Shown here: piece by piece, positions 2,932 through 16,520 of the stretch
Layout: each line of letters starts with the position of its first letter
How positions within the stretch are numbered: position 1 is the first letter of the stretch
Assembly: GCF_000227685.2 (NCBI RefSeq)
Contig: NZ_CP007029.1
Coordinates: 2,764,501 to 2,828,500 of the forward strand
DNA from: Thioalkalivibrio paradoxus ARh 1
Lineage (GTDB): Bacteria > Pseudomonadota > Gammaproteobacteria > Ectothiorhodospirales > Ectothiorhodospiraceae
Direction of reading: 5' to 3'
DNA length: 64,000 nt
The notes under the pieces: generated by a model
Seen by the model: only the letters and a program-made list of their open reading frames with translations
Database searches by the model: none
What the model was told of the DNA's origin: nothing
Translations under genes and position numbers: made by a program

Positions 2932-3102
2932 ATGAACCCGGCGGCCGGCGTGCTGGTCGTGCTGCTGGGGGCCCTGCTGTTCCTGTCACCGATCGCGATC
3001 TGGGTAGCTTCGATCGCCCCGGCCTGGTGGTGGCCGTTCGTGGCCTGGGCCGTGCTGATCGCGGTCATCGCCTTCCACGTTCTCGGCCGCCGTGACCCTT
3101 AG
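2932..3102 (+). CDS. Small two-helix membrane peptide ahead of the sensor kinase (CbrX-like position)
   Basis: A 56-residue ORF starts at an ATG with GGAAG about 8 bases upstream. It encodes two hydrophobic segments (about residues 6-27 and 31-51) with a Trp-rich turn (APAWWWP) and a basic tail, so it should be an inner-membrane peptide. Its last codons overlap the GTG start of the kinase by 11 bases, a strong sign of translational coupling. In Pseudomonas a small ORF (cbrX) sits in the same place before cbrA (from memory). Similar position and size are visible here; sequence homology cannot be tested. Its function is unknown; it may control kinase translation or interact with its membrane domain. 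Confidence 0.75.
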   Translation: MNPAAGVLVVLLGALLFLSPIAIWVASIAPAWWWPFVAWAVLIAVIAFHVLGRRDP

Positions 3103-6022
3103 CCTCGGCCTGCTGTACACCGTCGGCGTCATCTACCTGGCGCTGCTGTTCGGGATCGCGTTCGTCGCGGAACGCAGCCGCAGGTTCGGCCGCATCGCGG
3201 GCAACCCGTGGGTCTACACGCTTTCGCTGGGCGTGTACGCGACGTCCTGGACGTTCTACGGCAACCTGGGGTTCCTCGAGGACCACGGCTACCTGTACCT
3301 GACGATCTACCTGGGGGTCACGCTGGCCTTTGCGGCGACGCCGTGGCTGCTGCGGCCGATTCTGCAGCTCACCCGCGAGCACCAGCTCACCTCGCTCGCG
3401 GACCTGTTCGCGTTCCGGTACCGCAGCCTGCTCACCGGGCCGCTGGTTGCGCTGTTCATGCTGACCGGGATCCTTCCGTACATCGCGCTGCAGATCAAGG
3501 CGGTCGCGGAGTCGGCCGCGGTGCTCACCGCCGACACGCCGCCGCATCTGCTGGCCCTGACCTTCAGCGCCACCATCGCGCTGTTCGCGATCCTGTTCGG
3601 CGCCCGCCACATCTCGCCGCGGGAAAAGCATTCGGGGCTGGTGGTCGCCATCGCGTTCGAGTCGCTGGTGAAGCTGCTGGCGTTGCTGACGATTGCCGCC
3701 ATCGCGCTGTACGCGGTTTTCGGCGGCCTGTCCGGTCTCGACGCCTGGCTCGACCGACATCCGGAGGCGGTCACCGCGCTGTACGAGCCGGTGACCGGCG
3801 GCGGTTGGTACAGCCTGATGGTGCTCGCCTTTGCCGCCGCGTTCCTGCTGCCGCGGCAGTTTCACATGCTGTTCACCGAAAACATCGACCCAAAGGCATT
3901 GAACCGGGCGGCCTGGGGGTTTCCGCTGTTCCTGCTGCTGCTGAACCTGCCGATGCCGGTGTTGTACTGGGCGGGACAGGCCGCCGGACTGACCGACCAC
4001 CCCAACTACTACGCGCTGGGGCTCGCGGGCTGGCTCGAGTCTCCGACCCTCGCGCTGCTGGTATTCATCGGCGGCGTGTCGGCCGCCAGCGCGATGATGA
4101 TCGTGACCACGCTGGCGCTGGCGAACATGGGCATGAACTACCTGTCCCTGCCCGCGCGCCTGCGCGAACGCCAGAGCCTGCCGGCGAACCTGTACCGCAA
4201 CCTGCTCTGGGGCCGGCGCATCTGGATCGTGCTGATCATCGCGCTCGGCTATGGGTTCTACGGCCTGCTGCAGGTCGTCGAGGGTCTGGCCCAGCTCGGC
4301 CTGATTTCCTTCGCCGCGGTGACCCAGTTCCTCCCCGGACTGATCGGGCTGATGCTGTGGCCACGAGCGACCCGCATCGGCTTCCTGCTGGGGCTCGTGG
4401 CCGGCATCACCGGATGGTTCTTCGCGCTGGTCGCGCCGCTGCTCGCGAACGCCGGAATCTGGCCGTCGGCGCCACGACTCCAGCAGGCGATGGGCGCCGA
4501 CGGCCTGGATGTCTGGACCTTCGCCCTGACGCTCAGCCTCGGCGCCAACGCATTGCTGTTCGTGCTCGGATCGATGTGGTCCCGGCCGAATCAGCAGGAG
4601 ATCGAGGCCGGCCAGGCCTGCTGTCCGCGCGAGCCGTTCTACACCAGCGTCGACCTGCCTTTGGCCCGGGACGTGCCCGAGATGGAGGCGGAACTCGCCG
4701 CGACCCTGGGTACGATGCCCGCCCGCCACGAGATCGAACGCGCACTGGACGACCTCGGCCTGCCGCGCCACACCCGCTCGCGGCGTGATCTGCAGCGCCT
4801 GCGCGAGCGTATCGAACGCAATCTGTCGGGGTTGCTCGGGCCGGTGCTGGCGCGGATGATCGTCGACCGCCACCTGCGCCTGGACGCGGCCGGACGCTCC
4901 AGCCTCAGCGAGAGCCTGAGCCGGATCGAGCAGCAGCTGGAGGATGCCCGGCTGCCACTCACCGGACTGGCGGCGGAACTCGACGCGCTGCGCCGTTTCC
5001 ACCGGCAGATCCTGCACGAATTGCCGCTGGGCGTCTGCAGCGTGACCGCCGGCGGCGAGATCACCGGCTGGAATCACGCGTTGACGCAACTGACCGGCGT
5101 CCCGACCGAGAACGCCGTGGGCCAGGTCGTCGAGCGCCTGGAACGCCCCTGGGGCGGGCTGCTGCAGGCCTTCCTCGACAGCGACGACCGGCAGCTCTAC
5201 AAGCTGAATCTGGAAACCTGCCGCGGTCCGCGGCGCCTGAATCTGCACAAGTCGTCGCTGGAAGTCGCGAGCGGGCGGCGCGAGGGCCATGTGATCCTGA
5301 TCGAGGACGTAACCGCCCGGGTGCAGCTGGAGAACGAAGTCGCGCACAGCGACCGCCTGGCGTCGATCGGCCGGTTCGCGGCCGGCGTCGCACACGAGAT
5401 CGGCAACCCGCTGGCCGGGATCGCCTCGCTCGCACAGACCCTGCCACTGGAGGACGACCCCGATGAGATACGGGACATTGCCGACGACATCATCGAGCAG
5501 ACCCGTCGAATCAATGCGATCGTGCAGTCGCTGATCGCGTTTGCCCACTCCGACACGCCCCCGCGCAACCGCTTCGAGACGGTGGATCTCGAGGACGTGG
5601 TCTCGGAAGCGATTCGCCTCACGCGGCTGGCCGGGCGCAAGGACCTGCACTACGCGCCGGAGGGGCTCTGGGCGCTGTCGGTGCAGGGCGCACGCGCGCA
5701 GCTGCTGCAGGTGTTCATCAACCTGTTGACCAACGCGGAGCAAGCCTCGCCGCCCAGTGCCACGATCCAGATCCGCGCACAGCAAAAGGACGCCCGGGTG
5801 CAGGTCGACATCATCGACCAGGGGCCCGGCATCGAGCCATCGTCCCTGGACCGGCTGTTCGAACCCTTCTTCACGACCAAGCCCGCAGGCCAGGGCACCG
5901 GGCTCGGACTGCCGGTTGCCTACAGCATCGTGCAGGATCACGGTGGTAGCCTAGTGGCTGCAAACGCACCGGAAGGCGGCGCAAAGATGATCCTGACGCT
6001 TCCCCTGGGCAGAAAAGCATGA
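3092..6022 (+). CDS. CbrA-like sensor histidine kinase with sodium/solute-symporter domain
   Basis: The 976-residue protein begins with about 13 membrane helices resembling the sodium/solute symporter (SLC5/PutP) family (residues 1-490). A helical linker follows, then a PAS domain (about 645-740), a dimerisation domain with phospho-accepting His768 in GVAHEIGNPLAGI, and an HATPase domain with DQGPGIEP and GTGLGLP boxes. It has no C-terminal receiver. This is the CbrA architecture of Pseudomonas, where the pair CbrA/CbrB controls carbon and nitrogen source use. The start is a GTG inside the end of the preceding small gene, without its own clear ribosome site, so translation is probably coupled. 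The stop overlaps the ATG of the regulator gene (ATGA). Which ligand the symporter domain senses is not visible. Confidence 0.9.
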   Translation: MTLSLGLLYTVGVIYLALLFGIAFVAERSRRFGRIAGNPWVYTLSLGVYATSWTFYGNLGFLEDHGYLYLTIYLGVTLAFAATPWLLRPILQLTREHQLTSLADLFAFRYRSLLTGPLVALFMLTGILPYIALQIKAVAESAAVLTADTPPHLLALTFSATIALFAILFGARHISPREKHSGLVVAIAFESLVKLLALLTIAAIALYAVFGGLSGLDAWLDRHPEAVTALYEPVTGGGWYSLMVLAFAAAFLLPRQFHMLFTENIDPKALNRAAWGFPLFLLLLNLPMPVLYWAGQAAGLTDHPNYYALGLAGWLESPTLALLVFIGGVSAASAMMIVTTLALANMGMNYLSLPARLRERQSLPANLYRNLLWGRRIWIVLIIALGYGFYGLLQVVEGLAQLGLISFAAVTQFLPGLIGLMLWPRATRIGFLLGLVAGITGWFFALVAPLLANAGIWPSAPRLQQAMGADGLDVWTFALTLSLGANALLFVLGSMWSRPNQQEIEAGQACCPREPFYTSVDLPLARDVPEMEAELAATLGTMPARHEIERALDDLGLPRHTRSRRDLQRLRERIERNLSGLLGPVLARMIVDRHLRLDAAGRSSLSESLSRIEQQLEDARLPLTGLAAELDALRRFHRQILHELPLGVCSVTAGGEITGWNHALTQLTGVPTENAVGQVVERLERPWGGLLQAFLDSDDRQLYKLNLETCRGPRRLNLHKSSLEVASGRREGHVILIEDVTARVQLENEVAHSDRLASIGRFAAGVAHEIGNPLAGIASLAQTLPLEDDPDEIRDIADDIIEQTRRINAIVQSLIAFAHSDTPPRNRFETVDLEDVVSEAIRLTRLAGRKDLHYAPEGLWALSVQGARAQLLQVFINLLTNAEQASPPSATIQIRAQQKDARVQVDIIDQGPGIEPSSLDRLFEPFFTTKPAGQGTGLGLPVAYSIVQDHGGSLVAANAPEGGAKMILTLPLGRKA

Positions 6023-7332
6023 CTCGGATCCTTCTGGTCGACGACGAACCCGCGATCCGCCGGGGTGTCCGGCGCTACCTCGAACACCACGGGTTCGAGG
6101 TCGCCCTGGCGGAGGATCTCGGCGCTGCCCGAATCCGTGCCGCGGAGGAATCCTTCGACCTGCTGCTGGCCGATCTGCGCCTGCCCGACGGCGAGGGTAC
6201 CGCGCTGATCGGGGAATTCCCGAACCTGCCGACGGTGATCATGACTGCCTACGCGTCGGTGCCCTCGGCGGTCGAGGCGATGAAATCGGGAGCGATCGAC
6301 TATATCGCCAAGCCTTTCGATCACGATGCTCTGCTGCTGACCCTGCGCGCGGCGCTGCGCAGCAGCAGCCGCAGGGAGCCGCCTGCGCGCCCGCCGACGG
6401 AGGCCGGCCCGGAGCACGGGCTGCTCGGGCACAGCGCGGCGATCGAGACCCTGCGCCAGCAGATTCGCCGGGTCGCGGCGACCCACTCGACGGTGCTGAT
6501 CCGCGGCGAATCGGGTACCGGCAAGGAGGTCGCGGCACGCGCGATCCACGCACTGAGCCCGCGGGCCGACAAGCCCTTCGTCCCGGTGAACTGCGCGTCG
6601 ATTCCGGAGGGACTGGTCGAAGCCGAACTGTTCGGGCACGCCCAGGGCGCGTATACCGGCGCGGTCAAGGCGCGAGCCGGTCTGGTCGAGGCCGCCGACG
6701 GCGGCGTGCTGTTCCTCGACGAGATCGGGGAACTCGCGCCCGCCGCCCAGGCCCGGCTGCTGCGGGTGCTACAGGAGGGCGAGATCCGCCCGGTGGGCGC
6801 AACCCAGGCGCGGCGGGTCGATATCCGGCTGCTGGCCGCGACCCATCGAGACCTCGAGGCGATGATCGAGGCACAGGCGTTCCGGGCCGATCTCTACTAT
6901 CGCCTGCGGGTGCTGGAAATCCGTATTCCACCGCTGCGCGAACGTCTGGAAGACCTGGAACGGCTGATTCCGCACTGCCTGCACGAGCTGGAACGGCGCA
7001 TCGGCCGCGACGGGCTGACGCTCAGCGACGACGCGCTCGCGCGCATGCAGGAATACGACTGGCCGGGCAACGTTCGGGAACTGAAGAATGCGCTGGAGCG
7101 GGCCGCGGTGCTTTCGGAGGACAGCCGGATCGAATGGGCGCATCTCGGGCTCGACAGCCCCGCAGCCCCGCCCGAGAACCCGCCCCGGGGGAATAGCCTG
7201 AATGACTACTTCCGGCGCTTCGTGCTGGAAAACCAGGCTCACATGAACGAAACCGAACTCGCCCGCGCCCTCGGGATCAGCCGCAAGACGCTCTGGGAAC
7301 GCCGCCAGCGCGAACAGCTGCCGAGGCCCTGA
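6019..7332 (+). CDS. Sigma-54-dependent response regulator (NtrC family, CbrB-like)
   Basis: The 437-residue regulator has a receiver domain (Asp52 phosphorylation site, conserved Lys98), an AAA+ domain with Walker A GESGTGKE (163-170), the sigma-54 contact loop GAYTGA (210-215, the Tyr form of GAFTGA) and Walker B LFLDE (231-235), and a Fis-type helix-turn-helix at the C-terminus (ELARALGISRKTLWERR). It should activate sigma-54 promoters when phosphorylated by the kinase, whose gene it overlaps by four bases. A sigma-54 promoter with two upstream palindromes lies about 100-200 bp beyond its stop, making the following genes its likely targets. Confidence 0.92.
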   Translation: MTRILLVDDEPAIRRGVRRYLEHHGFEVALAEDLGAARIRAAEESFDLLLADLRLPDGEGTALIGEFPNLPTVIMTAYASVPSAVEAMKSGAIDYIAKPFDHDALLLTLRAALRSSSRREPPARPPTEAGPEHGLLGHSAAIETLRQQIRRVAATHSTVLIRGESGTGKEVAARAIHALSPRADKPFVPVNCASIPEGLVEAELFGHAQGAYTGAVKARAGLVEAADGGVLFLDEIGELAPAAQARLLRVLQEGEIRPVGATQARRVDIRLLAATHRDLEAMIEAQAFRADLYYRLRVLEIRIPPLRERLEDLERLIPHCLHELERRIGRDGLTLSDDALARMQEYDWPGNVRELKNALERAAVLSEDSRIEWAHLGLDSPAAPPENPPRGNSLNDYFRRFVLENQAHMNETELARALGISRKTLWERRQREQLPRP

Positions 7333-7433
7333 CCCCCGCCATCGGAAGGACGGGTGTGCCGGCCCGCGCAGCCGACGCCCTGCCCCGGCTGGCATCGATG
7401 CCCCCTGCGAGACTCCGCGCCGCAGAGCCCGGC

Positions 7434-7448
7434 GTTACGGACCGTAAC
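7434..7448. promoter_or_regulatory. Upstream activator palindrome 1 (candidate regulator binding site)
   Basis: GTTACG-GAC-CGTAAC is a perfect 6+6 palindrome with a 3-bp centre, 85 bp before the sigma-54 -24 element. Its half-sites are identical to those of the second palindrome, whose centre is 23 bp away, about two helical turns. GTTAC half-sites resemble those described for CbrB (from memory). Confidence 0.7.
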
Positions 7449-7456
7449 CCCCTCCC

Positions 7457-7471
7457 GTTACGCGGCGTAAC
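7457..7471. promoter_or_regulatory. Upstream activator palindrome 2 (candidate regulator binding site)
   Basis: GTTACG-CGG-CGTAAC repeats the half-sites of the first palindrome exactly with a different 3-bp centre, as expected for two dimers of an enhancer-binding protein bound on the same face of the DNA. Confidence 0.7.
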
Positions 7472-7532
7472 ACGGGCCGCGCAACGGACAAGAACACCTT
7501 CGCAACCCATTGTTTTAGATAGAAACATGTCT

Positions 7533-7550
7533 TGGCACGGCCATTGCTTT
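7533..7550 (+). promoter_or_regulatory. Sigma-54 (RpoN) promoter
   Basis: TGGCACG at 7533-7539 and TTGCTTT at 7544-7550 match the -24/-12 consensus TGGCACG-N4-TTGCW completely, with the invariant GG and GC 12 bp apart. Transcription would start near 7560, about 27 bp before the ATG at 7587. It lies on the correct strand for the uptake genes. Confidence 0.88.
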
Positions 7551-7586
7551 TGGTCGCACGACCCTTGCTGACCTGCCAGGCTGCCC

Positions 7587-9461
7587 ATGTCCGATGCGCT
7601 CGACACCACCCGGGAGTTCCTGAACGCCCACGCGCCGTTCGATCATCTCGAACCGGACGCACTGGAGTTCCTGCTGCCGCGCCTGGAGTCCCGTTTCTAC
7701 GCCAGCGGCGAGCGCATCACCGACCCCGATGCCGGCCCGGCACGGCGCTTTCACATCATCCGCCAGGGTCGGGTCCGTGGGGAGAATCCCAGCGAGGACG
7801 AGCAAGTCTCCGGCAAGGCCTGGGAACTGGTGCCCGGCGAGAGCTTTCCGATCGGCGCGCTGCTCGGACGGCGTCCGGTGCATACCGTGCATCGGGCGCT
7901 CGAGGACACGCTCTGCCTGGAACTCTCGCTCGAGGACTTCGACCGCCTGCGCACCCGCTCGCCGGTCTTCAACGATTTCTGCTCGCGCCGGCTGGCCAGC
8001 CTGCTCGACCGACTCCACCAAGGACTGATCGCGGGCCAGCTGGGTCACTCCGGCGCCAGCGGGCAGCTGAACACGCCGCTGGGCGCACGGGTTACCCGCG
8101 AGCCGGTCACCTGCAGCCCGGACACCCCGCTGCGCGCTGCCCTGACCACGATGCGCGACCAGAAGGTCGGCTCCATCGTCGCGGTGGATGGTGAAGGACG
8201 ACCGCTGGGCATCTTCACGATGACCGACCTGCTCTCGCGGGTGACGCTCGAGGAACGGCCACTGGATACGCCGCTGCGACAGGTGATGACACCGGACCCG
8301 ATCGCACTGCCGGACTCGGCGCTGGGTTTCGAGGGCATCGAGACCATGGCCGATCACGGCATGAAGCATATCTGCGTGGTCGCCGGCGGACGCCTGGTCG
8401 GGGTACTCGGCGAGCGCGACCTGCTGACCTCGCACCCGCTGACGCTCGACCGGCTGGTGCGCGGAATCCTCCGTGCCGATACGGTATCCACGATCGCCGA
8501 CCAGCTGCGCGAGCTGCCGCGCCTGATTGGTGCGGTGATCCACCAGGGCGCCGAGGCCGACCAGATCCTGCGCCTGATCACGCGCATCAACGACCATGCC
8601 ACGCGGCGCGTCCTGACGCTGCTCCGGTCACGGCACGACATCGCGGACATCGGTTTCACCTGGCTGGCCTTCGGCTCGCAGGCACGCGAGGAACAGGCGC
8701 TGACAACCGACCAGGACAATGGAATCCTGTTCCGCTGCAAGCCGGGACAAGAGGACGAGACCCGGGAACGCTTGCTGCCGTTCGCGCAGGCGGCCAATCA
8801 GGCGCTGGCGGAATGCGGGTTCGAGCTCTGCCCCGGAAACGTGATGGCCGGCAACCCCGAGTGCTGCCTGAGCGGCACCGAATGGGAGCGCCGCTTCAGC
8901 CGCTGGATCGATCAGGGTACGCCGGAGCACCTGTTGAAAAGCACGATCTTCTTCGATCTGCGCGCGATCGACGGCGATCCGGGCCCGGTAGAAGAACTGC
9001 GCTCACAGCTACTGCACAAGACGGCGTTCAACAGCCGTTTCCGCCGCCAGATGGCGGCCAACCAGATGCGCTTCCGGCCGCCACTGGGGCTGTTCGGGGA
9101 GATCCGCAGCGGCTCCGACGGCATCAACGTCAAGCTGCATGGGCTGACGCCATTCGTCGATGGCGCGCGGGTGATGGCATTGGCCGCGGAACTGCCCGCG
9201 ACCCGCACCCACGAGCGCCTCGACCAGGCGGTATCGGCCGAGACCCTGCGCGAGGACGACGCCCACGACTACCACGCCGCACTGCGCTACCTGCAAATGC
9301 TGCGCCTGCGCAGCCAGCAGCAGGCCCTGGCAGAGGGCCGCGATGGCGGCAACCGCATCCGTCCGGAGGAACTCGGCACCCTCGAGGGCCGCGTGCTCAA
9401 GGAAGCCTTCCGGCAGGCCCGCAAGCTGCAGGGGCAGCTGGCGGTTCAGTACCAGCTCTGA
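7587..9461 (+). CDS. DUF294 nucleotidyltransferase-like protein with cyclic-nucleotide-binding-like and CBS domains (copy A)
   Basis: The 624-residue cytoplasmic protein has an N-terminal cNMP-binding-like domain (1-140), paired CBS domains (about 168-288), and a GlnD-like nucleotidyltransferase core GSQAREEQALTTDQDNG (Gly363-Ser364 and Asp375/Asp377), then a DUF294 C-terminal domain. The catalytic GS and DxD residues are intact. Proteins of this type are usually found beside VC_2705-type sodium/solute symporters, but their substrate is unknown; sensing of adenine nucleotides by the CBS pair and modification of a partner protein is a fair guess. It is the first gene behind the sigma-54 promoter. 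No strong Shine-Dalgarno sequence precedes its ATG. A paralogue lies at 11669. Confidence 0.88.
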   Translation: MSDALDTTREFLNAHAPFDHLEPDALEFLLPRLESRFYASGERITDPDAGPARRFHIIRQGRVRGENPSEDEQVSGKAWELVPGESFPIGALLGRRPVHTVHRALEDTLCLELSLEDFDRLRTRSPVFNDFCSRRLASLLDRLHQGLIAGQLGHSGASGQLNTPLGARVTREPVTCSPDTPLRAALTTMRDQKVGSIVAVDGEGRPLGIFTMTDLLSRVTLEERPLDTPLRQVMTPDPIALPDSALGFEGIETMADHGMKHICVVAGGRLVGVLGERDLLTSHPLTLDRLVRGILRADTVSTIADQLRELPRLIGAVIHQGAEADQILRLITRINDHATRRVLTLLRSRHDIADIGFTWLAFGSQAREEQALTTDQDNGILFRCKPGQEDETRERLLPFAQAANQALAECGFELCPGNVMAGNPECCLSGTEWERRFSRWIDQGTPEHLLKSTIFFDLRAIDGDPGPVEELRSQLLHKTAFNSRFRRQMAANQMRFRPPLGLFGEIRSGSDGINVKLHGLTPFVDGARVMALAAELPATRTHERLDQAVSAETLREDDAHDYHAALRYLQMLRLRSQQQALAEGRDGGNRIRPEELGTLEGRVLKEAFRQARKLQGQLAVQYQL

Positions 9462-9509
9462 CCCCGCGTCGGCGGGAGTTCTTTCACCCAAACCCCAAGG
9501 AGTTATGCC

Positions 9510-9770
9510 ATGACACAACAGGAAAGCAGGGCCGCCTACTGGCGGGCCAACCTGCGGCTGCTGACCATCCTGCTGACCATCTGGTTCGTCGTGTCCTTCG
9601 GCCTCGGCATCCTGCTGTCGCAGCAGTTGAACCACATCAGCCTCGGTGGCTATCCGCTCGGCTTCTGGTTCGCCCAGCAAGGCTCGATCTACACGTTCAT
9701 CGTGCTGATTTTCGTATACGCCTGGCGCATGAGTGTGCTGGACCGCAAGTTCGACGTACACGAGGACTGA
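9510..9770 (+). CDS. DUF4212 membrane protein, putative symporter small subunit
   Basis: The 86-residue protein has two hydrophobic helices (about 18-38 and 54-72). A short loop between them holds LGGYPLGFWFAQQGS, and the tail is RKFDVHED, the pattern of the DUF4212 family described as the small subunit of solute:sodium symporters. AAGGAG stands about 8 bases before the ATG. It ends seven bases before the start of the large symporter gene, so the two should be co-translated and probably form one transporter. Confidence 0.9.
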   Translation: MTQQESRAAYWRANLRLLTILLTIWFVVSFGLGILLSQQLNHISLGGYPLGFWFAQQGSIYTFIVLIFVYAWRMSVLDRKFDVHED

Positions 9771-9777
9771 GACAGCC

Positions 9778-11553
9778 ATGGATCTCAAGACACTGAGTTT
9801 GTTGGTCGTCGGTGCGACCTTCGCGATCTACATCGGCATTGCAATCTGGGCCAGGGCGAGCAGCACCAGCGAATTCTACGTGGCCGGCAAGGGCGTGCCG
9901 CCGGTCCTGAACGGCATGGCCACCGCAGCGGATTGGATGTCCGCGGCGAGCTTCATCTCGATGGCCGGCCTGATCGCGTTCCTCGGCTTCACCGGCGGCG
10001 CCTACCTGATGGGCTGGACCGGGGGCTACGTGCTGATGGCGCTGCTGCTGGCGCCGTACCTGCGCAAGTTCGGGAAGTTCACGGTGCCCGAGTTCATCGG
10101 CGACCGTTTCTACTCGAAAGCTGCGCGGATCGTCGCGGTGATCGCGCTGCTGGTAATGTCGATCACCTACGTGATCGGGCAGATGCGCGGAGTGGGCATC
10201 GCCTTCTCGAACATCCTCGAGGTCAGGCTGGAGTACGGCCTGGTCACCGGCATGGCCGTGGTGTTCATCTACGCGGTGTTCGGCGGGATGAAAGGCATCA
10301 CCTACACGCAGATCGCGCAATACGTGATCATGATCTTCGCCTACACCGTGCCGGCCGTGTTCATCGCAATCCAGCTGACCGGAGCGCCGCTGCCGCAGAT
10401 CGGCCTGGGCTCGACGCTTGCGGGCGAGGATACCTACCTGCTCGAGGCACTCGACCGGACGCTGGTGGATCTCGGCTTCGCCGCGTACACCTCGGTCGCC
10501 GGCATGAGCATGCTGAACATGTTCCTGCTGACGCTGGCGCTGATGATCGGCACCGCCGGCCTGCCGCACGTGATCATCCGCTTCTTCACCGTGCCGCGCG
10601 TGCGCGACGCGCGCAAGTCCGCCGGCTGGGCGCTGGTGTTCATCGGCATCCTGTACACGACTGCGCCCGCGGTCGGTGCGATGGCGATGTACAACCTGAT
10701 CAAGACCGTGCAGCCCGGTGAGGTCGGGGATCCGCAGGGCAACCTGGTGATCGACGAGCGTCCCGACTGGATGCTGCGCTGGGAACGCACCGGCCTGTTG
10801 GAGTGGGAAGACAAGAACGACGACGGCCGCCTGCAGTACTACAACGACGCCAACCCCGAGTTCGCCGAAATGGCACGCGAGGAGTTCGGCTGGGAGGGCT
10901 CCGAGCTCACCCGGATCGACCGCGACATCATGGTGCTCGCAAACCCGCAGATCGCCAATCTGCCGAACTGGGTGATCGCGCTGGTCGCGGCGGGAGGGAT
11001 TGCGGCAGCACTGTCGACCGCGGCGGGCCTGCTGCTGGCGATCGCGTCGGCGATCTCGCATGACCTGCTGAAAGGCGTGTTCATGCCAAAAATATCGGAG
11101 AAACGGGAACTGCTTGCAGGGCGCATCGCGATGGGAGGCGCGATCCTGTTCGCGGGCTACCTGGGCCTGAATCCACCCGGCTTCGCGGCTGAGGTGGTGG
11201 CGCTGGCCTTCGGACTTGCCGCGGCGAGCCTGTTCCCGACGCTGATGATGGGGATCTTCGTCAAGCGGATGAACCGCGAAGGCGCGATCGCCGGAATGCT
11301 GGCGGGCCTGACCAGCACCCTGTTGTACATCTTTCTGTACAAGGGCTGGTTCTTCTTCCCCGGCACCAACGTGTTCCCCGACACCGCCGAGTACTGGCTG
11401 TTCGGCATCAACCCGACCGGCTTCGGTGTGATCGGCGCGCTGCTGAACTTCCTCGTCGCCTATCTGGTGATGAAGGTCACCAAGGCCCCGCCGGAGCATA
11501 TCCAGCACCTGGTCGAGGACGTGCGCGTACCGCGCGTCGGAACCGGTTCGTAA
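9778..11553 (+). CDS. Sodium/solute symporter, VC_2705 family (acetate-permease-like)
   Basis: The 591-residue transporter has the SLC5 fold with about 13 membrane helices. TAADWMSAASFISMAGLIAF in helix 2 is typical of ActP-like carriers. A hydrophilic insertion at about 320-385 (rich in Asp, Glu and Trp) marks the VC_2705 subfamily. It should import a small carboxylate, most likely acetate, with sodium. The substrate is inferred from the family and from acetyl-CoA synthetase encoded 2.9 kb downstream. The ATG at 9778 is used because it aligns with the family N-terminus and follows the small-subunit gene closely; an upstream in-frame ATG would overlap that gene. Confidence 0.88.
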   Translation: MDLKTLSLLVVGATFAIYIGIAIWARASSTSEFYVAGKGVPPVLNGMATAADWMSAASFISMAGLIAFLGFTGGAYLMGWTGGYVLMALLLAPYLRKFGKFTVPEFIGDRFYSKAARIVAVIALLVMSITYVIGQMRGVGIAFSNILEVRLEYGLVTGMAVVFIYAVFGGMKGITYTQIAQYVIMIFAYTVPAVFIAIQLTGAPLPQIGLGSTLAGEDTYLLEALDRTLVDLGFAAYTSVAGMSMLNMFLLTLALMIGTAGLPHVIIRFFTVPRVRDARKSAGWALVFIGILYTTAPAVGAMAMYNLIKTVQPGEVGDPQGNLVIDERPDWMLRWERTGLLEWEDKNDDGRLQYYNDANPEFAEMAREEFGWEGSELTRIDRDIMVLANPQIANLPNWVIALVAAGGIAAALSTAAGLLLAIASAISHDLLKGVFMPKISEKRELLAGRIAMGGAILFAGYLGLNPPGFAAEVVALAFGLAAASLFPTLMMGIFVKRMNREGAIAGMLAGLTSTLLYIFLYKGWFFFPGTNVFPDTAEYWLFGINPTGFGVIGALLNFLVAYLVMKVTKAPPEHIQHLVEDVRVPRVGTGS

Positions 11554-11567
11554 CCGATCCGCCGCAG

Positions 11568-11595
11568 GCCAGGCCCGCCGTTCGGCGGGCCTGGC
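11568..11595 (+). terminator. Strong hairpin after the symporter gene
   Basis: A perfect 12-bp stem (GCCAGGCCCGCC / GGCGGGCCTGGC) with a 4-base loop starts 15 bp after the stop codon. No U-run follows, so it may be a weak terminator or an mRNA-stabilising hairpin that lowers expression of the next genes. Confidence 0.5.
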
Positions 11596-11668
11596 CCCTG
11601 GGCCGGACCGAACCGCAAGGGCAGGCACGCCATTGCCCTTGCGGTTCCATCTGGGGTAAACGGGGAAT

Positions 11669-13528
11669 ATGGACGCGGAATTGCGGGAGATACGCGATTT
11701 CCTGGCCGCGAGCCCGGATTACGCGGTGTTGCCGGAGCCGGCGCTCGACCGCCTGCCCCGGCAGCTGGTCGTACGCTACCTGCGCCGAGGCAACCCGTTC
11801 CCGCCCGCTCCCGCGGACGCGGGCGACCTCTGGCTGGTGCGCACTGGCGCGATCGACCTGCGCACGCGGCAGGAAGAACTGCTCGACAAGCTGGGCGAGG
11901 GCGACGTGTTCGCGGTTCCCGGCGACGACGACGGCGCGGAGGTCATCGGACGGGTCGTCGAGGATGCGCTGTTCTACGTGCTGCCAGCGCCGGCGGCACG
12001 CGAACTGCGGCGCCAGCACCCGGAGTTCGCCGACCGTTTCGACCTGGCCAGCCGCCGCCCGCTGCAGCGGGCGCTGGCCGCCTTCCAGGGCTCCGCCGGC
12101 CGCGGCGACAGCGTACTGACCGTTTCGGTGGGAGAACTCGTGACCCGTGCGCCGGAGCACATCGGTCCGGACGCGACCATCCAGGACGGCGCACGCCATA
12201 TGAGCGAGCAGGAGGTTTCGGCGCTGCTGGTGATGGCGGACGACGAACTGATCGGAATCGTCACCGACCACGACCTGCGCAAGCGCTGCCTCGCGACCGG
12301 GCGTTCGCGCCAGGAACCGATCGGCAGCATCATGAGCAGCGGGCTGCAGACTGTGACACCGGAGACACCGGCATTCGAAGCGCTGCTGCTGATGTCTCGA
12401 CTGGACATCCACCACCTGCCGGTTCTTGCCGGCAGTCAGCCAGTGGGGCTGATCTCCACCACGGACCTGATCCGTCACCAGGGCACCAATGCGGTCTATC
12501 TCGTCCGCGATATTCGTCGCTGCGAGTCGGTCGCCGCCCTCAGGCGCGTGACACAGGCCCTGCCGGAACTGCAGATCCACCTGGTGCAATCCGGGGCTAC
12601 CGCGATGCACCTGGGCCAGGCGGTGACCGCGGTGATCGACGCACTGACCCGGCGCCTGCTGAAGCTGGGCGAAGCGGCACTCGGAACGCCGCCCGTGCCT
12701 TTCGCCTGGCTCGCCTGCGGATCGCAGGGACGCCGCGAACAGACCGTGCACACTGACCAGGACAACGCGCTGATCTACGCCGACACCGAGGATGCCGGCG
12801 CGGACGCGTACTTCGAGCGTCTGGCGCAGTTCGTCACCGACGGCATGGACCAGTGCGGTATTGCCCATTGTCCGGGCCAGGTCAGCCCGCGCTCGGTACA
12901 CTGGCGGCGCCCGGTCAGCGGCTGGCGCGACGAATTCGCCCGCGTGCTGCGCATTCCCGACCGCAAGGCCGCGATGCTCGCCGCGCATTACTTCGACCTG
13001 CGGGTGGTGCATGGCGACGCGCAGCTGTTCGAGCCACTGCGCGCCGAGGCCCTGCGCCACGCCGCGACGCGCCGTCCGTTGCTGGCACAGGTTGCCGAGA
13101 ATGCCCTGGACACCCCGCCCCCGCTCGGCTTTTTCCGGCAACTGGTGCTGATCCAGGGCGGCGACCAGGCCGATACGCTGGACGTGAAAAAGCAGGGACT
13201 GCTCCCGATCACCAGCCTCGCGCGAGTCTACGCGCTGCAGGCGGGGGTTCCTGGCCTGCATACGCTGGACCGGCTGCGTGGCGCGGTGGAGGCAGGCGTG
13301 ATTGGCCAGGACGACGGCGCGAATCTCTGCGGGGCATACGAAACGCTGGCCACGCTGCGCGCTCAGCATCAGGCGCGACAGATCAAGCAGGGCCAGCCCG
13401 CCGACAATTTCATCCCGCCCAGAAGCCTGTCGCCGCTGGAACGCGGTCACCTGAAGGACGCCTTCGGCGTGATCGCGACGATGCAGAAAAACCTGCGCGC
13501 ACGCCTGGTCGGTCTGGGGGGGCCATGA
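11669..13528 (+). CDS. DUF294 nucleotidyltransferase-like protein with CBS domains (copy B)
   Basis: This 619-residue paralogue of the protein at 7587 has the same order: a degenerate cNMP-binding-like N-terminus (1-135), two CBS domains (about 150-275), a nucleotidyltransferase core GSQGRREQTVHTDQDNA (Gly351-Ser352, Asp363/Asp365) and the DUF294 C-terminal domain. The catalytic residues are conserved. Its stop overlaps the ATG of the exonuclease gene (ATGA). With copy A, it brackets the two symporter genes, suggesting both act on or respond to that transport system. A 115-bp gap with a hairpin separates it from the symporter, so it may be expressed at a lower level. Confidence 0.85.
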   Translation: MDAELREIRDFLAASPDYAVLPEPALDRLPRQLVVRYLRRGNPFPPAPADAGDLWLVRTGAIDLRTRQEELLDKLGEGDVFAVPGDDDGAEVIGRVVEDALFYVLPAPAARELRRQHPEFADRFDLASRRPLQRALAAFQGSAGRGDSVLTVSVGELVTRAPEHIGPDATIQDGARHMSEQEVSALLVMADDELIGIVTDHDLRKRCLATGRSRQEPIGSIMSSGLQTVTPETPAFEALLLMSRLDIHHLPVLAGSQPVGLISTTDLIRHQGTNAVYLVRDIRRCESVAALRRVTQALPELQIHLVQSGATAMHLGQAVTAVIDALTRRLLKLGEAALGTPPVPFAWLACGSQGRREQTVHTDQDNALIYADTEDAGADAYFERLAQFVTDGMDQCGIAHCPGQVSPRSVHWRRPVSGWRDEFARVLRIPDRKAAMLAAHYFDLRVVHGDAQLFEPLRAEALRHAATRRPLLAQVAENALDTPPPLGFFRQLVLIQGGDQADTLDVKKQGLLPITSLARVYALQAGVPGLHTLDRLRGAVEAGVIGQDDGANLCGAYETLATLRAQHQARQIKQGQPADNFIPPRSLSPLERGHLKDAFGVIATMQKNLRARLVGLGGP

Positions 13529-14232
13529 TCCGCCCGGGCCCCTGGCTCTTCTGCTGGCGCCGCCGGCGGCTGGCGCTGCGCCTGCCCGACGTCCCGCTGC
13601 GCGCGTATCTGCACCGCAAGATGCCGCGCCTGTGCAGTGACTGCCGCGACACGCCGTTTCTGGCGGTGGATCTCGAGACCACCGGCCTGAACCCTGCGCG
13701 CGATCAGATCCTGAGCATCGGCTGGGTCGCGATGGACGGACTGACGATTCGCCTGGAGACCGCACGACAGACCTGGGTGCGCCCGTCGCAGGCGATTCCG
13801 GAGGCCAGCGCGGTCATTCACCATATCACCGACGACCAGGCGGCCAGAGGCGGCAGCCTCGGCTCCGCGCTGACACTGCTGCTGCAGGCACTGGCAGGCC
13901 GCGTGATGCTTGCCCACCACGCGGCCGTGGAACTGGGCTTTCTGGACCGCGCCTGCGTGAGCGAGTACGGGCACCCCTGTTTGATTCCAACCGTGGACAC
14001 ATTGCGCCTGGCACAGGAACAGCTGGCCCGCCGGCAGGAAGCCATCCGCTCGGACGGGCTGCGCCTCGCGGCGCTGCGCGAGCAGTTCAATCTGCCGCCC
14101 TACCGCTCGCACGACGCGTTGAGCGATGCGCTGGCTGCGGCCGAGCTGTTCTGCGCCCAGGTCAGCCACCGCGCGGGCGACGGTCCGCTGCCGCTGCAGC
14201 GGGTGCTGCACCGCCCGGGTGCGCTGTGGTGA
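13525..14232 (+). CDS. DnaQ-like 3'-5' exonuclease
   Basis: The 235-residue protein has the DEDD exonuclease fold. Motif I is [13 protein letters not shown] (Asp49, Glu51), motif II follows the HHITDDQA segment, and motif III is SHDALSDA, giving the DEDDh active site. The basic N-terminal 40 residues before motif I are an extension. Similar exonucleases often follow a DUF294 gene in acetate-uptake loci; whether it degrades DNA, RNA or a small nucleotide is unknown. It starts inside the stop of the previous gene (overlap of four bases), so it is co-translated with it. Confidence 0.85.
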
Positions 14233-14404
14233 ACCGCGTTGTGGTGACCACGGGGCCGATGCCGCGCGCCAGGGACCGGAAAACCCGCGTGCTATGCTTT
14301 CGAGGCTCCGCTCCCGGCGCCGCGGCGCACCACGGACCCACCGCAGAAGGTCCGACAGAACGTATCGAGAACCCACGAGCCCTGAACCAGTCTGGAGGCA
14401 AGAG

Positions 14405-16363
14405 ATGAGTGACACGATCGAATCCGCGCTGCACGAGAACCGGCATTTCCCACCGCCGGCCGACTTCGTGGCCAACGCCCGCCTGAAACCGGAGGAGGCC
14501 GAAGCGCTGTATCGCAAAGCCGAGGAGGATCACGAAGGCTTCTGGTGCGACCTCGCGCGGGAAAAAATCACCTGGCACCGGGAATTCAGCGTCGGGCTCG
14601 ACGACAGCCAGGCCCCGCACTACGCCTGGTTCACCGATGGGCGGATGAACGTGTCCTACAACTGCATCGACCGGCATCTCGACACGCGCGGCGACAAGCC
14701 CGCGATCATCTTCGAGGGCGAGAACGGCGACACGCGCACCTATACCTACCGGGATCTCTACCACGAGGTCGGCAAGCTCGCGAACGGGCTGCGCGCCAGC
14801 GGCGTGCGCAAGGGCGACCGCGTGGTGATCTACATGCCGATGATCGCCGAAGCCGTGATCGCGATGCAGGCCTGCGCGCGCATCGGCGCGGTCCACTCGG
14901 TGGTGTTCGGCGGCTTCTCCGCGGACGCGCTGCGCGACCGCATCGACAACTCGGGCGCCGAGGTGATGATCACCGCGGACGGCGGAACCCGCGGCGGCCG
15001 GGTCGTCTCGCTGAAGAAGACCGCCGACAAGGCGCTGGACATCTGCAGCGGAACGGTCCGGAAAGTGATCGTCTGCAAGCGGGCGGGCAACGAGGTCAAC
15101 ATGACCGAAGGCCGGGACGTCTGGTGGCAGGACCTGGTGGCCGATCAGCCGGTCGATTGCGAACCCGAATGGGTCGAGTCCGAGCACCCGCTGTTTCTTC
15201 TCTACACCTCGGGTTCGACCGGCAAGCCCAAGGGGATCCAGCACGCGAGCGCGGGCTACCTGCTGAACACGATCATCACCAACGAGTGGGTCTTCGACCT
15301 GCACGACGAGGACATCTTCTGGTGCACTGCCGACGTCGGCTGGATCACCGGGCACTCGTACGTGGCCTATGGGCCGCTGGCGGTCGGCGCCACCCAGGTG
15401 GTCTACGAGGGCGTGCCGACCGTTCCCGACGGCGGGCGCTGGTGGCAGATGTGCCAGGCACACGGGGTGACCGTGTTCTACACCGCTCCGACCGCAATCC
15501 GCGCGCTGATGAAGCTTGGCGACGAGATCCCGGCCGAGTACGACCTTTCGAAACTGCGTCTGCTCGGCACGGTCGGCGAACCGATCAACCCCGAAGCCTG
15601 GATGTGGTACTACCGGACGATCGGCGGCGAGCGCTGCCCGATCGTGGACACCTGGTGGCAGACCGAGACCGGTGCCCACATGATCGCGCCGCTGCCCTCG
15701 GTGACGACGCTGACGCCCGGTTCCTGCACGCGTCCCCTGCCCGGCATCGTCGCCGACGTGGTGAACGAGGAAGGCGAGAGCCTGGGGCCGGACCAGGGGG
15801 GATTCCTGGTGATCAAGAAGCCCTGGCCGTCGATGCTGCGCACGGTCTGGCAGGACGACCACCGCTACAAGTCGACCTACTGGCCGAAGTTCGACGGCAA
15901 GTACTACCTGGCCGGCGACTCGGCCCGGCGCGACCCGGACGGCAATTTCTGGATCATGGGCCGCATCGACGACGTGCTGAACGTTTCCGGCCACCGTCTG
16001 GGAACGATGGAGATCGAGTCGGCGCTGGTCGCACACGAAGCCGTCGCCGAGGCCGCCGTGGTCGGGCGGCCGCACGACGTGAAGGGCGAGGCGATCGTCG
16101 CGTTCGTGATCCTGAAGGGCGAGCGGCCCACCGGTGCCGCAGCGGAGGAAATGGTCAAGGCGCTGCGCGAATGGGTCAGCGAACACATCGGCCCGATCGC
16201 GAAACCCGACGACATCCGCTTCGCCGATGGCCTGCCCAAGACCCGTTCCGGCAAGATCATGCGCCGGCTGCTGCGCTCGATCGCGAAGGGCGAGGAGATC
16301 ACGTCCGACACCTCGACGCTGGAGAACGAGGCCGTGGTCGCGCAGTTGCAGGGCAAGGCGTAG
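14405..16363 (+). CDS. acsA: Acetyl-CoA synthetase
   Basis: The 652-residue enzyme converts acetate, ATP and CoA to acetyl-CoA, AMP and PPi. It shows the A3 motif [11 protein letters not shown] at 267-277, the acetate-pocket/adenylate region [12 protein letters not shown], the hinge region [16 protein letters not shown], and the regulatory/catalytic lysine (Lys617) in RSGKIMRR that protein acetyltransferases modify. Length and motifs fit AcsA over its whole length. GGAGG precedes the ATG at 14405. It follows the uptake genes on the same strand after a 172-bp gap containing a possible extended -10 (TGCTATGCT near 14290), so it may have its own promoter as well. Confidence 0.95.
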
Positions 16364-16408
16364 GCGGACGCAAGGCGGCGCCAGAAGCCGGCGAACGGAC
16401 AGGGCACC

Positions 16409-16435
16409 CCCCGGCGGCGACGGCAGCCGCCGGGG
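16409..16435 (+). terminator. Candidate terminator after acsA
   Basis: A 10-bp perfect stem CCCCGGCGGC / GCCGCCGGGG with a 7-base loop lies 45 bp after the acsA stop. It lacks a U-run, so it is a hairpin that could help termination or protect the 3' end. Confidence 0.4.
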
Positions 16436-16491
16436 ATCCCCAGCCGCGAGATTCGGTGGCACGCGGTCCGCGTCGCCGCGAAGGCCTTGCG

Positions 16492-16520
16492 TTGACGCTT
16501 TCCGGGCCCGGTCCTAGTAT
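16492..16520 (+). promoter_or_regulatory. Sigma-70 promoter for the Anbu gene
   Basis: TTGACG at 16492-16497 (5 of 6 matches) and TAGTAT at 16515-16520 (4 of 6) are spaced by 17 bp. The predicted start near 16527 leaves a leader of about 25 bases. Confidence 0.6.

Follow-up and report, generated by a model that had tools for sequence, protein, structure and literature searches.

The sigma-54 promoter in front of an uptake operon of Thioalkalivibrio paradoxus ARh 1 very probably belongs to a local circuit of the CbrAB family, in which a regulator gene, two palindromic boxes, a -24/-12 element, and the putatively controlled genes lie side by side. The elements, their uniqueness and conservation, the family membership of the kinase and regulator, and the gene order were computed from the window (the whole stretch of 64,000 nucleotides analyzed here) and from related genomes (Table 1). 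From these we infer a signal-driven chain of events, in which the transporter-like kinase would phosphorylate the CbrB-type regulator, and regulator dimers would bind the two palindromes, each half of which is the GTTAC half-site of Pseudomonas CbrB. Assisted by DNA bending at the IHF-like site, the regulator would activate sigma-54 RNA polymerase at the -24/-12 element, and the transcript would run from DUF294a (our name for the first operon gene) through the DUF4212, symporter, DUF294b, and exonuclease genes and probably through acsA. The operon would most likely import acetate or a similar short monocarboxylate, which would then be converted to the CoA ester.

Table 1. Features of the proposed circuit, with positions in the window
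Feature	Position	Strand	Sequence or basis
CbrA-family sensor kinase	3092..6022	+	Pfam PAS, HisKA, HATPase_c; alignment to the G197 kinase
CbrB-family NtrC-type response regulator	6019..7332	+	Pfam Response_reg, Sigma54_activat; REC, AAA+, Fis-type HTH
Upstream palindrome 1	7434-7448	.	GTTACGGACCGTAAC, perfect GTTAC-N5-GTAAC; sequence reading and pattern search
Upstream palindrome 2	7457-7471	.	GTTACGCGGCGTAAC, perfect GTTAC-N5-GTAAC; sequence reading and pattern search
IHF-like element	7503-7515	.	CAACCCATTGTTT; 30 bp before the -24 element
Sigma-54 -24/-12 element, consensus	7533-7547	+	TGGCACGGCCATTGC; sequence reading and pattern search
DUF294a, cNMP-binding/CBS/DUF294/DUF294_C, first operon gene	7587..9461	+	Pfam
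DUF4212 small membrane protein	9510..9770	+	Pfam DUF4212 (3.2e-36)
VC_2705-family sodium/solute symporter	9778..11553	+	TIGR03648, 837.2 bits (cut-off 320.75)
DUF294b, CBS/DUF294/DUF294_C	11669..13528	+	Pfam
Exonuclease-domain protein, overlaps the DUF294b stop	13525..14232	+	Pfam RNase_T (9.2e-22)
acsA, acetate--CoA ligase	14405..16363	+	TIGR02188, 991.2 bits (cut-off 724.95)

Promoter elements and the kinase-regulator pair

Sequence reading and a pattern search both confirmed what the initial annotation had described, namely twin perfect palindromes and a consensus -24/-12 element between the regulator gene and the transport operon. The palindromes are 23 bp apart (start to start), and the -24/-12 element begins 61 bases past the second one; all three lie between the end of the regulator gene and the start of DUF294a (7332 to 7587), thus combining a -24/-12 element with upstream activator sites as is characteristic of sigma-54/NtrC-type promoters. 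The transcription start is predicted near 7559, and the IHF-like element, which is read on the minus strand, deviates from the IHF consensus at one position.

A search of the genome for the palindrome, which had been proposed as a check, found GTTAC-N5-GTAAC twice in 3,756,729 bases, with both copies at 7434-7471, and the control pattern, read backwards, once. With one mismatch allowed, the genome has 10 sites, fewer than the 32 obtained with the reversed pattern; outside this locus the motif thus tends, if anything, to be rare. From the composition of the window, 0.97 single palindromes and 3e-6 twin pairs are expected per genome, as well as about 0.013 sigma-54-like sites (at least 5 of 6 beside GG and GC) per 90-bp single-strand stretch. 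Looser matches are ordinary: a single palindrome with up to two mismatches has a shuffle mean of 0.92 in 64 kb (26 of 100 shuffles reach two), and the 125 -24/-12-like matches with two mismatches in the window are no excess over the shuffle mean of 130. The perfect pair, the perfect -24/-12 element, and their conservation are not the product of chance. A wider regulon in this genome was also considered and rejected, as no sigma-54 element (at least 5 of 6) flanks any of the eight one-mismatch sites, left or right, at a distance of 20-200 bp; weaker targets or targets with a single half-site are still conceivable.

The kinase and the regulator had been called CbrAB-like from their sequences, an identity that best matches and two trees bear out. 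A Pseudomonas-type reference came from a search for CrcZ RNA (RF01675) in 274 genomes of this class, among which only genome G197 scored above the cut-off (306.8 bits). In one-way searches from the window proteins, the kinase matched the CrcZ-adjacent kinase of G197 at 45% over residues 3-971 (803.7 bits; second match there 288 bits) and the regulator matched G197 CbrB at 55% (439.7 bits; next match 314.1 bits). G197 CbrB and the window regulator share a clade of 28 rows with a support of 100/100, apart from the included NtrC-type paralogues, and a second tree returned the same grouping with 26 rows (100/100). The transporter-like character of the kinase N-terminus comes from the alignment to G197 CbrA alone; Pfam gave no match to SSF (SLC5) or STAC at E 0.001 and no receiver domain in this protein. 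Likewise, the regulator HTH, which has no Pfam match, was recognized by its alignment to the nearly identical HTH of CbrB. The canonical sigma-54 contact loop is GAFTGA, and the translated window regulator carries GAYTGA. A kinase architecture without receiver, a place in the regulator clade, and GTTAC half-sites before a sigma-54 promoter are thus features that the window pair has in common with the CbrAB family.

The kinase is matched at E 1e-120 in 30 of the 274 class genomes. In the window it is preceded by dksA- and gluQ-RS-like genes (1186-1611 and 1688-2608, respectively), and 21 of the 30 class loci, G197 not among them, likewise have gluQ-RS no more than 1.5 kb ahead of the CbrA match. 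CbrAB has been called unique to Pseudomonadaceae (PMC8871633; PMC6296734), and the presence of a pair assigned by its sequence to the CbrAB family goes against this statement. No report of CbrAB in Thioalkalivibrio or Ectothiorhodospira was found among the top-ranked matches in the open-licence literature. Transcripts of cbrA and cbrB have been described from a mixed marine community, where they were not placed in an organism (PMC5073097), and kinases with a solute-symporter domain have already been reported to be widespread in Bacteria (PMC7918813).

In Pseudomonas, CbrB is described as a monomer that occupies non-palindromic subsites with TGTTAC/GTAACA half-sites (PMC6296734). The remark in the initial annotation that CbrB recognizes GTTAC-type half-sites is therefore right as to the half-site, but the published sites are reported as non-palindromic. 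At crcZ of G197, GTTAC-N15-GTAAC-N18-GTAAC is followed by TGGCACGACAACTGC. As the HTH is nearly the same in the window regulator and in CbrB, both probably use the same half-site code with altered spacing. The idea that the Pseudomonas subsites are decayed palindromes was rejected: by eye, the partner halves at G197 crcZ match at only 2, 2, and 1 of 5 positions.

CbrB promoters are reported to be IHF-dependent (PMC6296734). A YAA-N5-TGWTT element between boxes and -24 was perfect in 21 of 33 spacers and present with up to two mismatches in 32 of 33, the pattern having been drawn up after inspection of the data, so that its shuffle values are descriptive only. It lies 29-32 bp before the -24 element in 31 of the 33 spacers, and crcZ of G197 has a perfect copy at 32 bp. 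A CrcZ-like RNA at the window promoter was rejected, since RF01675 has no match in the window genome and the stretch between the -12 element and the start codon measures only 39 bases.

The operon and its probable substrate

Between DUF294a and acsA, the first three intergenic gaps measure 48, 7, and 115 bases; an overlap and a final gap of 172 bases follow. The search for terminator-like sites gave none ahead of acsA, the only same-strand site in 5900-16500 being at 9463-9476 (four sites were found in all versus 4.5 in shuffles). The gene order through acsA is kept in the three copies read that far in which the operon is relocated away from the regulator gene (G007, G012, and G022), and acsA is the last gene of the run in the window genome as well as in G007, G010, G012, and G022. 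It is thus plausible that acsA is the last gene under the same promoter and would be co-transcribed.

Across 25 CbrA-positive loci, which were read over unequal downstream stretches from 2.2 kb (G022, G096, G176, G197, and G230 were left out), an AcsA match lies downstream in 15 (raw count), and acsA directly follows cbrB in seven (G246, G123, G097, G087, G225, G237, and G292). The boxes are not a feature of every cbrAB-acsA locus, a possibility that was rejected because the twin palindrome is absent at six of these seven; the seventh, G237, has a twin with one mismatch and a weak sigma-54 element (4 of 6). In G190 (L258), cbrAB is accompanied by half-sites, one palindrome, a sigma-54-like element, ABC-transporter-like genes, and acsA at 72% identity; judged by eye, the genes with the Tat-type binding protein look like an ABC transporter, that is, the same logic with another transporter. 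In G097, a second transporter-domain kinase-like match (L255:4668-6188, 40% over 510 aa) follows cbrAB-acsA on the strand opposite cbrAB and is perhaps of the CrbS type.

We favor, with some reserve, acetate or a close relative as the substrate of the operon. The acsA gene recurs beside or within these loci, and all four AcsA copies tested (the window copy and three others) exceed the AcsA cut-off and fall short of the PrpE cut-offs. Furthermore, a protein of the same domain make-up as DUF294a (PFLU5625, a cAMP-binding/CBS/nucleotidyltransferase protein) belongs to the acetate regulon of P. fluorescens, where deletion of pflu5625 is described as having a negligible effect on growth on acetate (PMC5715377). 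That the circuit works as described and imports something else, such as pyruvate, lactate, propionate, an amino acid, or another solute, is a lesser but substantial possibility. Neither the VC_2705 symporters nor DUF4212 were found to have a substrate assignment: the literature searched returned no substrate assay for either, and DUF4212 had no match in the open-licence literature. RpuS/R, whose kinase is broadly of this type, is reported to control a pyruvate symporter (PMC9100948), Pseudomonas CbrA is reported to bind histidine (PMC13022988), and the transporter-like genes between cbrB and acsA in G190 are of the ABC type.

Within this range of alternatives, the sensor pocket argues against histidine. 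The contacts are listed with the cryo-EM structure of Pseudomonas CbrA (PMC13022988), and their numbering was transferred by one motif; G197 has the P. putida residue at 11 of the 12 sites. These 12 positions read YTWTYIYKAARF in the window kinase versus YSWAFTYKFSHF in G197, with K196 kept. In 27 of 29 family kinases, including that of the window, A56 is replaced by T or S, F248 by A or S, S251 by A, and H257 by R, and the Na2-site lysine K196 is retained; only G197 and G043 keep A56, F248, and S251. The differences suggest a ligand other than histidine and do not themselves name it. The initial annotation had further supposed that the kinase senses the transported substrate, which was not borne out, as the SLC5 transporter domain of P. 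putida CbrA is described as dispensable for signaling (PMC7096432).

Conservation of the boxes and the genes beside them

The presence of the palindromes in relatives had been named as one of the points on which the proposal should stand or fall, and they were present at all 27 congeneric DUF294a genes found (27 of 30 genomes, the other three being 66-79% complete). Each of the 27 loci has twin boxes with at most two mismatches in 20 bases and, 52-65 bp beyond, a sigma-54 element with a score of at least 5 of 6; 14 loci have no mismatch, two have one, and 11 have two. In 15 loci, the regulator gene is found on a different contig or at a distance of at least 57 kb, and it is the operon that retains the boxes (perfect in 2, with one mismatch in 2, and with two mismatches in 11). 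The other 12 loci, which are not relocated, all have perfect boxes.

Seen from the regulator gene, 30 loci were first read, which are the best of those in 53 of 58 genomes. Twin boxes stand just 3' of the gene in 11 loci of the genus (window included) and in one Ectothiorhodospira (G035); the remainder comprise 15 loci with a different gene next, two at a contig edge, and one without boxes (G032, of the same family, with no palindrome in the 9 kb read). In three further members of the family (G031, G033, and G034), perfect twins immediately precede DUF294a, with sigma-54 scores of 4, 5, and 4 of 6, respectively. In the other Thioalkalivibrio clade (L016-L030), the operon is located elsewhere and a different gene directly follows the regulator; we take this gene to resemble a 2'-5' RNA ligase.

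Class-wide, 24 DUF294a loci were compared (one truncated locus was dropped, and G169 contributes two). The boxes occur at 7 of 11 loci in CbrA-positive genomes versus 1 of 13 in CbrA-negative ones (Fisher p 0.008), the four CbrA-positive loci without boxes being those of G050, G097, G197, and G237. The exact twin was found in 5 of 274 class genomes, always just upstream of DUF294a (p 3.4e-6), and the reversed pattern in 1 of 274. CbrA is present in 4 of the 5 genomes with the exact twin versus 26 of the 269 without (p 5.5e-4). G115 has boxes without a CbrA match, in a genome that is 81% complete.

When the twin pattern alone was searched in the GTDB genome set, at least 120 loci were obtained, and 27 of the matches listed are Pseudomonadota by record name. 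Among the matches listed, the boxes of 24 of these 27 loci adjoin DUF294a or the kinase/regulator genes: DUF294a lies just downstream in 21 (L112 being counted from the longer stretch L158), the boxes directly follow the family regulator gene in L041 and L063, and they precede the kinase gene in L044. The other three listed (Ensifer, Aurantiacibacter, and Shewanella) adjoin neither. Seven of the 21 DUF294a loci are contigs of the sampled genus; the other 14 include G035 (L060), G115 (L040), and L105, which is named Thioalkalivibrio and has a DUF294a that is only 53% identical. In L063, a Rhodocyclaceae genome, the kinase gene is followed by the regulator gene, the boxes, and the genes of DUF4212 and the VC_2705 symporter. 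The 93 listed loci from unrelated groups gave no DUF294a match over 80 bits. The prediction that the two-component system activates the adjacent DUF294-DUF4212-symporter genes gains support from the conservation of the boxes at DUF294a or the kinase/regulator genes and from the family membership of the pair.

The unrelated groups show several kinds of arrays. Prevotellaceae loci (L033, L036, L038, L039, and many others, mostly of MAG RUG12386) carry dispersed GTTACTGNCAGTAAC-like palindromes with 22-bp spacing, which resemble a repeat family or the sites of a very large regulon. Treponema loci (L034, L055, L074, L086, L094, and L106) contain runs of several GTTAC-N5-GTAAC with a spacing of about 23-27 bp, and none of the window genes has a relative there above 80 bits; these are probably the operator of an unrelated regulator. 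The palindrome pairs of Mycobacterium/Mycobacteroides (L035, L068, L107, L111, and L151), about 24-25 bp apart, are likely sites of another regulator. One Planctomycetota MAG has repeated GTTACGAATCGTAAC / GTTACGAAACGTAAC-like pairs at seven loci (L037, L054, L099, L131, L140, L142, and L146).

Could the boxes be read by another NtrC-family protein or by a repressor, with the adjacent CbrB-type protein controlling other genes? The twin GTTAC palindromes of unrelated phyla imply that other proteins can read this sequence, the window genome encodes seven further proteins that match the regulator (E 1e-70 or better), and G115 has the boxes without a detected CbrA. We consider this reading improbable in view of the co-occurrence of the exact twin with CbrA, the position of the twin beside family kinase/regulator genes in several lineages (including Rhodocyclaceae L063), and the agreement with CbrB, whose published subsite has GTTAC as its core and whose HTH is almost the same as in the window regulator. 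That the palindromes are a structural repeat or arose as chance dyads and regulate nothing, for which the repeat-like Prevotellaceae arrays could speak, was rejected as extremely unlikely on the grounds of the single twin copy in the window genome, the class-wide co-occurrence, the fixed position at one gene in lineages where DUF294a is only 43-55% identical, and the 31 distinct perfect boxes with differing centers among 41 distinct boxes at 33 loci.

Comparison with known systems

The regulator-box-operon arrangement proposed here shares its kinase and regulator families and its GTTAC half-sites with Pseudomonas CbrAB-crcZ (as described in PMC6296734 and PMC8871633), and in the G197 example an IHF-like element and a -24/-12 promoter also stand just 3' of cbrB, as in the window. 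The target differs, being a DUF294 uptake operon in the window and crcZ in Pseudomonas, and so do the operators, which are paired perfect palindromes here and are described as non-palindromic in Pseudomonas. The pocket residues differ as well, and the window pair is located outside Pseudomonadaceae. It is therefore not a CbrAB system in the strict Pseudomonas sense, which would entail a crcZ neighbor, non-palindromic subsites, and the histidine-contact residues.

The sensor-regulator system thus looks wider and differently wired than described. As a tentative reading, on which we would not insist, CbrAB may be of old standing in gamma- and some beta-proteobacteria, where a transporter-like kinase and a regulator binding as a dimer to paired GTTAC palindromes switched on acetate-type uptake and acsA; Pseudomonas may then be derived, with histidine as signal, crcZ as target, loosened non-palindromic half-sites, and the acetate genes left to CrbS/CrbR. 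It has been pointed out that non-palindromic CbrB sites depart from what is usual among activators of this type, which leaves room for a re-evaluation of the binding model (PMC8871633). Relatives in which the palindromes are clean and paired would provide an evolutionary context for that question and a well-defined operator for biochemistry. Moreover, the altered pocket suggests that the ligand has changed in a transporter-kinase of which the Pseudomonas structure has just been published (PMC13022988).

CrbS/CrbR (MxtR/ErdR) of Vibrio and Pseudomonas (PMC5715377; PMC5436829) likewise has a transporter-like kinase and is reported to control acs, a symporter gene, and a cAMP-binding/CBS/nucleotidyltransferase protein, a set like that of the window. 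However, CrbS is described with a receiver domain, whereas none was found in the window kinase, and CrbR is described as a LuxR-type regulator that binds an imperfect inverted repeat beside an RpoD promoter, in contrast to the NtrC-type regulator and sigma-54 element of the window. No CrbR-like inverted repeat was detected at the window promoter, where 181 of 300 shuffles score as well (the matrix was built from four boxes, including that of PFLU5625). The window system was rejected as CrbS/CrbR on these three grounds (receiver, regulator type, and box).

In P. fluorescens, CrbS/CrbR is reported to govern acs, actP, and PFLU5625 via an inverted repeat (PMC5715377). The closest DUF294a homolog in G197 (43%) has 17 bases upstream that are identical to the PFLU5625 CrbR box and no twin palindrome there. 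With a CrbR box at the G197 homolog and CbrB-type boxes without a CrbR box in the window, the sequences suggest that CrbR controls the DUF294a homolog of one lineage and that a CbrB-type sigma-54 promoter drives that of the other. Such an apparent swap of acetate-gene regulators at the closest homologs of one gene offers a testable example of regulatory rewiring.

As for symporter-domain kinases in general, the domain combination is covered by a survey that places CbrA/CbrB in Pseudomonas and Azotobacter and, in the portion available, names no NtrC-type pair with palindromic boxes (PMC7918813). RpuS/RpuR-mctP of Sinorhizobium fredii (PMC9100948) is described with an imperfect direct repeat as operator and pyruvate as substrate, and the term NtrC is absent from the main text of that report. 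What it has in common with the window is the layout: an SLC5/STAC-type kinase adjoins a symporter operon, which its system controls in S. fredii and would control in the window, so that both would form local circuits.
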